Positions 20,251-21,832 of a stretch of DNA of 21,960 nt are shown here, piece after piece (positions within the stretch are counted from its first letter, which is position 1; each line of letters begins with the position of its first letter). Source of the DNA: a virus; IMG/VR virus record IMGVR_UViG_3300042922_000413, positions 1-21,960 of that record. One strand, given 5' to 3'. Below the pieces are notes generated by a model. The model did no database searches, was not told the DNA's origin, and was given only the letters and a program-made list of their open reading frames with translations. The position numbers were made by a program, and so were the translations under genes.

Positions 20251-20493
20251 ATGACCACCGCTGACACCGCGCCCGCTGAGAGCGCGCCAAACGGCACGAC
20301 GGCTGACGACGGAACCCAGATGCCTCCGGTGTACCCGGACAACACTGTCGGGATCCTGCAGCGTCAGCGTGACGACCTGCAGCGCTCCATCGACGCGGAC
20401 CGAGTCACCATCGGCATCATCACCGCTCGTGCCGACGAGTCTGCCGCCCGCGTGAAGCAGCTCGACCAGTCCATCGCGGAGCTCTCCAAGTAG
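20251..20493 (+). CDS. Small coiled-coil protein before the lysis genes
   Basis: An 80-residue protein with AGGAGG 10 nt before ATG 20251. The N-terminal 30 residues are disordered and rich in Thr, Ala and Pro. Residues about 34-79 form an amphipathic coiled coil (GILQRQRDDLQRSIDADRVT; RADESAARVKQLDQSIAELS). There is no membrane segment or signal peptide. It is the last gene before the UUCG-loop terminator, so it probably belongs to the tail operon as a small structural or assembly protein. Function is unknown. Confidence 0.7.
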   Translation: MTTADTAPAESAPNGTTADDGTQMPPVYPDNTVGILQRQRDDLQRSIDADRVTIGIITARADESAARVKQLDQSIAELSK

Positions 20494-20532: not shown

Positions 20533-20552
20533 TCGTCGTTCCAGGAGGAACC

Positions 20553-21341
20553 ATGACGCTCACGCTCGACGTGCGCAACGCACCCGCCCGGTTCCGGGAG
20601 ATGTCCGGGACCGGGGACAACGGGCTCCGCTACGGGCCCGGACGGAACCAGCCCGGCAAGTGCGCCCGGTGGGTGTGGCTCGCGCTCGGCGCGTTCCAGA
20701 ACACCACCCCGCTGCCGTCGGCCGTGGCCGCGTGGGAGCACGCCCCGGCCGCGCGGCGGCACCCGCTGACCGTGAAGCCCTTCGCCGGCGCGATCGCCGT
20801 GTTCGGTGCGACTGCCGGTCCGCGATGGGCGGGAGACGTGAACTGGCCCTACGGCGACGTCGCGATGTTCACCGGCGAAGGACTCGACTCCGACGACTGG
20901 CGCGACTGGGTCGTCCGAGCCACCGACGCGAACGGTCTCGGCGTGATCGCCGACGTCACCATGGGCACCCGCTACGTCCAGACCGGCCGCCGCCCCGTCC
21001 TCGGCTGGATGGACTCCTACGGCGGAGCGGTCCTCGTCAACGGCGGCATCCCCACACCGAAGCCCATCCCAACCCCGGCACCCGTGCCGGTCATCAAGCC
21101 TGAGGAGCAGGACATGCAGCGCTACCAGTACAAGAACGAGCGTGGGGTGACGATCTCCAAGGTGAAGCTCGGAGCTCACACCACCGTGCTCAACAACATC
21201 ACCGTCGCCGGCGAGGTCTTCGACCCGAAGGACCAGTTCGCCCTGCTCGAGCGACTCGACAAGTCGACCCTCGACAACCCGGTGGAGTTCAACCGGAACG
21301 AGATCCAGGTCGTCGAGCGCATCCTGAAGAAGCTCCGGTGA
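20553..21341 (+). CDS. Endolysin, CHAP/NlpC-like N-terminus with separate C-terminal domain
   Basis: A 262-residue protein with AGGAGGA before ATG 20553. Residues about 15-165 follow the layout of CHAP-like actinophage lysins: GKCARWVW (C37 as candidate nucleophile), AVAAWEHAPAARRHP, AGAIAVFGA, PYGDVAMFTGEG, and the late RRPVLGWMDSYGGAVLVNG. In related enzymes the histidine of the catalytic pair is in GHVA; here the residue is D102. A Pro linker (IPTPKPIPTPAPVPV, 166-180) leads to a 75-residue C-terminal domain (about 188-262), possibly for cell-wall binding or oligomerisation. An internal SD and ATG mark that boundary. The gene is followed by a holin, supporting a lysis role, but activity is uncertain because of H-to-D. 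Confidence 0.72.
   Translation: MTLTLDVRNAPARFREMSGTGDNGLRYGPGRNQPGKCARWVWLALGAFQNTTPLPSAVAAWEHAPAARRHPLTVKPFAGAIAVFGATAGPRWAGDVNWPYGDVAMFTGEGLDSDDWRDWVVRATDANGLGVIADVTMGTRYVQTGRRPVLGWMDSYGGAVLVNGGIPTPKPIPTPAPVPVIKPEEQDMQRYQYKNERGVTISKVKLGAHTTVLNNITVAGEVFDPKDQFALLERLDKSTLDNPVEFNRNEIQVVERILKKLR
21114..21341 (+). CDS. Possible internally initiated C-terminal lysin fragment (75 aa)
   Basis: Within the lysin frame, GAGGAG (21102-21107) stands 6 nt before an in-frame ATG (codon 188), exactly where the Pro linker ends and the C-terminal domain begins (MQRYQYKNERGVTISKVKLG). Several Gram-positive phage lysins make such a separate C-terminal subunit that assembles with the full-length enzyme. An alternative is that the Glu-Glu codons look like an SD by chance. 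Confidence 0.45.
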   Translation: MQRYQYKNERGVTISKVKLGAHTTVLNNITVAGEVFDPKDQFALLERLDKSTLDNPVEFNRNEIQVVERILKKLR

Positions 21342-21832
21342 GCGCCCTCGTGACGCGGTACGGCACCACGCTGCTGCCGCTGTTCGTCGCCCTCGCGGGG
21401 GTCTTCACGACGGCGGCGGACTCGACCACGGGCACGCTGCTGACCTGGTCGACGATCGTGCAGGCTGTGCTGCTGTTCCTCTCGACCGGCACCGACTACT
21501 GGCTGCCGCTCGTCGACCGCCGGTGGCGCGGGGCGGCGAAGACGGGCGCATCGATCGTGTTCGTGCTCCTCTCGGCCGCCGTCACCGCCTGGTCCGTCAC
21601 GGACGGCCACGTGACCAAGGCGAACGTGCTGCTGCTCGCGACCGCCGTGTTCAAGGCGCTCGTCACCGAGGTCGCGACGTGGATCCGCGTCGACGCGAAG
21701 CGGGTCGTCGACGCCACGGCAACGCCTGAGGGCCAGGTCCCGGTGATCACCACCCTGCCCACCATCGGCACCGACGAGTCGGAGCAGTCCGGCACCATCC
21801 CCGAGGAGCCCCGGCACCTCGCTGAGTCCTGA
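21338..21832 (+). CDS. Holin
   Basis: A 164-residue membrane protein starting at a GTG that overlaps the lysin stop by 4 nt. Four hydrophobic segments are visible, at about residues 10-26 (TTLLPLFVALAGVFTTA), 34-50 (LLTWSTIVQAVLLFLST), 67-85 (AKTGASIVFVLLSAAVTAW) and 95-116 (ANVLLLATAVFKALVTEVAT). A hydrophilic tail of about 45 residues rich in Thr, Pro and Glu follows. Location directly after the lysin and the multi-span topology fit a holin that permeabilises the membrane at lysis time. The SD is poor, and a second GTG at 21350 could give a shorter form. A generic membrane protein cannot be excluded. Confidence 0.75.
   Translation: MSALVTRYGTTLLPLFVALAGVFTTAADSTTGTLLTWSTIVQAVLLFLSTGTDYWLPLVDRRWRGAAKTGASIVFVLLSAAVTAWSVTDGHVTKANVLLLATAVFKALVTEVATWIRVDAKRVVDATATPEGQVPVITTLPTIGTDESEQSGTIPEEPRHLAES

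Follow-up and report, generated by a model that had tools for sequence, protein, structure and literature searches.

Internal translation starts in endolysin genes are established. A screen of 3,780 endolysins from Gram-positive and mycobacterial phages predicted such sites in 51.5% of them, with four verified, and 1:3, 2:2 and 1:5 heteromers have been described in which the site lies between the catalytic and binding domains, according to the available sections of PMC9430671. Starts in this position are termed Type II (PMC12203907, in the portion available to us), and all of the heteromers so far, six endolysins, belong to this group, while in some two-polypeptide endolysins the two chains did not associate (same sections of PMC9430671).

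The window analysed here, by which we mean the whole stretch of DNA, is a virus record of 21,960 bases whose open reading frames (ORFs) indicate a tailed-phage late region. Its plus strand carries a lysin gene at 20,553-21,341 (262 aa, 28.7 kDa) whose relatives are annotated as putative lysin, lysin A or endolysin, and whose full-length start, ATG 20,553, follows the SD AGGAGG at 20,543-20,548 after a 4-nt spacer (duplex -10.3). An N-terminal catalytic domain of approximately residues 1-165 (20,553-21,047), delimited from an AF2 model, VIA matches and a table of alignment columns and containing Cys37 and Asp102, leads into a Pro-rich linker (21,048-21,113) that forms a low-confidence stretch of the model and ends in PEEQD. 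The border DNA reads CCT GAG GAG CAG GAC ATG, such that an internal SD, GAGGAG (21,102-21,107), encodes an in-frame Glu-Glu pair, the spacer CAGGAC (21,108-21,113) measures 6 nt, and the in-frame ATG at 21,114-21,116 is Met188. The first-pass annotation, which had placed an in-frame SD-spacer-ATG at the linker/domain border of the lysin, was therefore correct, coordinates included. The C-terminal domain, or predicted separate subunit, occupies 21,114-21,341; as an internal-start product it would comprise 75 aa with a computed mass of 8.73 kDa and pI of 9.5, and would end at the same TGA (21,339-21,341) as the lysin. An in-frame internal start with a shared stop, situated between catalytic and C-terminal domains, is the layout of a Type II iTSS endolysin.

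We consider it likely, with a rough probability of 80%, that the window lysin is a two-polypeptide Type II iTSS endolysin consisting of the full-length enzyme and a free C-terminal subunit. Ribosomes would be recruited to the internal GAGGAG and start at ATG 21,114, producing the C-terminal domain alone; the likeliest fate of these extra copies is to bind the C-terminal domain of the full-length chain, giving a complex in which several wall-binding domains accompany one or few catalytic domains and which would possess higher avidity for the wall. On an evolutionary scale, phages exchange the C-terminal module and retain the internal ribosome-binding site ahead of it. The parts of this model differ in strength: the comparisons below indicate that the internal start is in all likelihood real and functional, its product is very probably translated in the cell, wall binding by the C-terminal domain is probable, and assembly of the small product with the full-length chain is slightly favoured by analogy to LysIME-EF1, CTP1L and LysP7951.

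LysIME-EF1 of Enterococcus phage IME-EF1 resembles the window lysin in its CHAP-type N-terminal domain, a linker of ~24 residues, and an internal ribosome-binding site with a Met at the start of a C-terminal domain of ~70 aa; its 8-kDa internal product and 1:3 tetramer are proven (PMC7098653), whereas their window counterparts are predicted. No sequence relation between the two C-terminal domains was detected, and the window has Asp102 where LysIME-EF1 would have its catalytic His90. Lys170, CD27L, CTP1L, CS74L and LysP7951 likewise have an in-frame start between domains and a shared stop (PMC9430671, in part). They differ from the window lysin in their hosts and in having been verified experimentally. 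Presumably, most of them also belong to other catalytic families. The mycobacteriophage endolysins Ms6 LysA and Pollywog are, like the window lysin, actinobacteriophage enzymes with an in-frame iTSS (PMC9430671, in part), but theirs separates two catalytic domains (Type I), which makes the shorter chain an enzyme too. Of the same catalytic family are the lysins of Microbacterium phages OneinaGillian, Gina, Smarties and Mercedes and of Curtobacterium phages Parvaparticeps and Kithara, which share the linker/Met border and differ from the window in their C-terminal domains, with the SD at the border Met being weak in Parvaparticeps. Our search for literature on internal starts in Microbacterium or Curtobacterium lysins found none, although individual Microbacterium cases may be listed in the supplement of PMC9430671; the available text of PMC7302621, on Microbacterium phages, does not treat internal starts, and that of PMC9862828, on Curtobacterium prophage endolysins, contains neither "internal" nor "isoform".

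Modelled fold and putative active site of the catalytic domain

Residues ~1-165 of the window lysin share 32.8% identity with the putative lysin of Curtobacterium phage Parvaparticeps, and through it the catalytic part is linked to Microbacterium phage lysin A or endolysin genes (52/55 records). In an AF2 model built with 17 aligned relatives, the catalytic domain reached a pLDDT of 80-95 and the C-terminal domain remained below 50; alignments of distant C-terminal domains looked unreliable and were left out of the modelling. Comparison of the catalytic model by VIA returned NlpC2 (Z 10.5, rmsd 3.3, 119 aligned), LysIME-EF1 6ist (Z 9.7, rmsd 3.5, 128 aligned) and the LysGH15 CHAP domain (Z 9.7, rmsd 3.7, 138 aligned), and Foldseek alone gave weak matches, the best being LysGH15 CHAP at E 0.038. 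The domain thus models as a papain-like fold of the CHAP (PF05257) or NlpC-P60-like type. Pfam returned no family at E<=1 for the window lysin, CHAP and NlpC-P60 profiles included, and a search of plasmids with the lysin gave no match.

The column of the catalytic Cys holds Cys in 55 of the 57 aligned relatives, with a gap in the other 2, and corresponds to window Cys37. Window Asp102 (20,856-20,858) stands at the place of the CHAP/NlpC catalytic His, in the column that follows the Gly of GDV; here 42/57 relatives have Asp, 14/57 have His and 1/57 has a Val that is probably misaligned. It is the GHV relatives that lead us to regard this as the catalytic His column. An 8-sequence alignment of the catalytic domain contained no invariant His; the enzyme might use a Cys-Asp pair for catalysis, or a His at another place.

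The border start across the catalytic family

Our family sample comprised 83 sequences (82 loci plus the window) drawn from catalytic-domain alignment scans, earlier scans and annotated phages. By the family HMM, 82 of these contained a relative and one, L080, did not; removal of identical sequences left 57 distinct ones, and a truncated contig (L046) was dropped, giving the 56 distinct lysins counted below. Seven phage loci (L083-L089) stand outside the family counts. We defined the border ATG as the first in-frame ATG past the catalytic domain (HMM column 128) and within 60 codons, a rule adopted ahead of any enrichment count; an alternative that began 15 residues short of where the HMM match ends was rejected because, in several lysins, it selected Mets within the catalytic domain. 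The controls were 207 other in-frame internal ATGs, 147 from the examined lysins and 60 from 17 other window ORFs (18 listed, 1 skipped for a wrong start, 2 read from approximate starts).

Most relatives have the internal site in the equivalent place, with a border ATG present in 50 of the 56 distinct lysins. The six lysins without one were Microbacterium phage Min1, in which the genes are split, L044, which has hardly any C-terminal domain, and L058, L064, L065 and L067. Judged by eye, the catalytic domain of L058 is followed by a GH25- and LysM-like continuation, and L064, L065 and L067 carry PG_binding-like repeats.

Border ATGs were strongly enriched for ribosome-binding sequence, with an SD core of at least 6 nt preceding 23/50 of them as compared to 1/147 other lysin ATGs and 0/60 other window-gene ATGs (p 6e-18). 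Lowering the threshold to at least 5 nt gave 31/50 against 14/147 and 5/60, respectively, and the median duplex energy was -8.4 at the border versus -2.6 for the lysin controls and -2.2 for the window-gene controls. In 38/50 lysins the border ATG was the strongest internal in-frame ATG. Five first border ATGs (L033, L038, L039, L043 and L062) had no SD core of at least 4 nt, though the L062 duplex still reached -9.4; L033 and L039 have an SD core at their second ATG, and both were scored as failures on account of the early Met that the rule selects. When AGGAG-type pentamers were counted from 75 nt upstream to 60 nt downstream of the border ATG, with overlapping pentamers scored separately, 48 of 71 occurrences fell 5-9 nt before the ATG.

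Given that related sequences inflate such counts, we clustered the C-terminal domains by BLASTP; the 51 domains, Min1 orf60 among them, formed 35 families, of which 34 remain when Min1 is excluded. With the member listed first serving as representative for each of the 34, an SD core of at least 6 nt was found at 14/34 border ATGs versus 1/101 other ATGs, and a duplex energy of -6 or lower at 28/34 versus 22/101 (p 6.5e-10 for the duplex energies). The RNA was also more open at the representatives' border starts (median unpaired 0.52 versus 0.38). The internal start proposed for the lysin at first pass is accordingly well supported by comparison, through its recurrence at the border and the codon choice and Min1 gene start considered below.

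The earlier proposal had also turned on conservation of the internal SD and Met in homologues. This held for most relatives in the family, and pairs that have other C-terminal domains in common mostly keep the internal site too. For the window's own domain, the comparison is confined to contigs L002 and L003, the only relatives found to carry it; both keep the SD and ATG, but they are near-identical contigs, so their agreement says little.

The C-terminal module and its exchange

The first-pass description of the C-terminal domain as unfamiliar holds. The 75-aa piece matched no Pfam family at E<=1, and for the window lysin and this domain the best E values were 0.3 in PHROGs and 0.019 among PDB sequences. 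Modelled alone and without an alignment, the domain gave three strands followed by two helices (beta-beta-beta-alpha-alpha) at a low-confidence pLDDT of 66.6; with this model Foldseek found nothing at E<=0.001 and VIA no clear match (best Z 4.9), a lack of structural matches that does not show a new fold. Searches for the domain found it neither in phages (tblastn) nor in 398 Microbacteriaceae genomes, and among viral contigs only in the two near-identical ones. Similarly, the C-terminal domains of Mercedes and Min1 were found in their own or duplicate records only, and searches with those of L050 and L066 found none.

This diversity bears on what a free C-terminal domain would do. It might be made but act alone, whether by binding the wall in free form or by tuning the timing of lysis, among other roles, a proposal that we consider unlikely without dismissing it: with 34 C-terminal families besides Min1, one common mode of assembly is not obvious, and the chains of some two-polypeptide endolysins stayed unassociated, yet the heteromers described to date, in six endolysins, all share the window's layout (available sections of PMC9430671).

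Pairwise comparisons demonstrate that catalytic and C-terminal domains are exchanged. The catalytic domains of L018 and L036 are 92% identical and their C-terminal domains unrelated (24%), the window and L059 share 68% in the catalytic and 18% in the C-terminal domain, and L055 and L070 present the reverse arrangement, with catalytic domains 42% and C-terminal domains 91% identical. An SD-like sequence precedes the border Met in all six, more weakly in L055 and L070. With 34 mutually dissimilar C-terminal families behind it, the internal ribosome-binding site has stayed while the downstream domain was swapped. Arthrobacter phages with a GHV-type catalytic domain have the same layout, clear in Kumotta and weak in GlobiWarming and Pointis.

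In Min1 the two parts are encoded separately. Its orf59 and orf60 (L012, 1264-2042; L032 duplicates this genome) belong to the same catalytic family and differ from the window lysin in being two genes in different frames, with the separate C-terminal ORF starting after TGAGGAGGACGACATG and preceded by the ribosome-binding site GAGGAG, as in the fused relatives. Upstream of its start this second frame stays open and encodes an acidic peptide resembling the linker, which suggests that in Min1 a frame change divided a fused gene or that the sequence has an error; Min1 supports independent initiation only if the split is real.

Min1 could also be taken to mean that a formerly independent gene for the C-terminal domain left its old ribosome-binding site behind in the fused linker, where it no longer serves. 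Its two parts are indeed separate genes with the same ribosome-binding site, and fusion has been raised as a possible origin of iTSS, on limited data (PMC12203907, in the portion available to us). We nevertheless judge this history improbable, since a site without use would be expected to decay, yet the border site is found again and again ahead of C-terminal families that resemble one another little, has persisted through indels and the turnover of codons, and is visible in codon choice. Because the separate frame of Min1 reads back through an acidic linker of the same kind, ancestral separateness is no more likely there than the splitting of a fused gene or an error in sequencing, and we did not accept Min1 as proof of such separateness from a record that may hold a frameshift or error.

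DNA-level and peptide-level constraint at the border

The codon signal was assessed with a synonymous test based on pooled codon usage outside the linker; within-gene synonymous shuffling was rejected for its little power, as EE-rich linkers feed their own codon pool. With peptides fixed, codons favoured the SD across the 34 representatives (p 2e-4) and in the 17 whose borders are not of the EE/QE/KE/EG type (p 3e-6), which points to selection on the DNA beyond any preference for an acidic peptide. GGA accounted for 7/14 border Gly codons versus 167/1643 elsewhere, and AGG or AGA for 3/6 border Arg codons versus 35/852 elsewhere. Glu codons before the border displayed no shift to GAG (27/42 versus 326/426), and codons of the acidic type therefore add nothing beyond the peptide. 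The codon register of the site varied, the core GGA starting at codon position 3 in 23/29 cases, position 1 in 5/29 and position 2 in 1/29.

Selection might instead act on an acidic peptide at the linker end, serving as a hinge or processing site, with the SD arising incidentally from the Glu codons of a GC-rich sequence. Most borders do read EE, QE or KE, the fraction of D/E in the 7 residues before the border Met is 0.32 as compared to 0.10 before other Mets, and the window itself fits this account. It is very improbable, however, since the SD is also encoded as Gly-Gly (L008, L011), Arg-Arg (L061, L007) and Gly-Asp (L042, L045, L069), versions that use the rare GGA, AGG and AGA codons, and since a Met follows at ribosome-binding spacing.

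Considered by itself, the window site is of middling strength. Its duplex with an assumed 16S 3'-end sequence has an energy of -7.8 kcal/mol and contains no 6-nt core, and the RNA around the internal start has an unpaired value of 0.47. When the window peptide was held fixed, ordinary codon usage normally yielded the same SD (mid-p 0.64); PEEQDM nearly dictates the SD, and the window alone is therefore weak evidence. A chance Met behind a Glu-rich linker in the window phage is nonetheless very improbable, for although 7/207 other in-frame internal ATGs have a duplex as strong and the window's synonymous test was negative, the ATG falls exactly at the domain border, as it does in 50/56 catalytic-domain relatives. 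A gene lying inside the lysin out of frame or on the opposite strand, judged from the list of ORFs, was likewise put aside.

The two-polypeptide endolysin of Type II iTSS is a known kind (PMC9430671 and PMC12203907, each in part); what is new here is its members and its breadth across an actinophage group, with one catalytic clade, 34 C-terminal families and one retained internal start. We tentatively propose that, across this clade of actinophage lysins, modules may be exchanged at the internal ribosome-binding site itself, a conserved joint into which any small wall-binding module that starts with its own Met would fit, selection keeping co-expression of the free subunit whichever module is present. 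If so, a plugged-in module would automatically be made in two forms, attached to the enzyme as its tail and free as a subunit, and the more than thirty dissimilar modules at the same joint would reflect selection that maintains this co-expression. That the internal start persists although the domain behind it has been replaced repeatedly is an argument that the free subunit is itself under selection. A clade of this kind bears on whether internal starts are relics of gene fusion, for which data are limited (PMC12203907, in part). The clade also supplies many small, culturable test cases in the phages of Microbacterium and Curtobacterium. In practical terms, recoding such a gene for recombinant production may deprive the lysin of a subunit that it needs, and an SD with a Met at the domain border could serve as a genomic marker for probable wall-binding domains that profiles miss.

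Two ORFs adjoin the lysin gene in the window. A GTG-start ORF at 21,338-21,832 overlaps the lysin stop and has hydrophobic stretches that, by eye, suggest a holin-like membrane protein, a reading for which Pfam and PHROGs gave no support; directly upstream of the lysin, an ORF of 80 aa at 20,251-20,493 has a strong SD, AGGAGGT, and a best PHROGs E of 0.033 (unknown function). Lysins of the family are called "membrane associated protein" in several RefSeq records (e.g. NC_048068.1 and NC_009603.1), while their GenBank twins are named lysin A or hypothetical protein, and the RefSeq label is probably a naming error.
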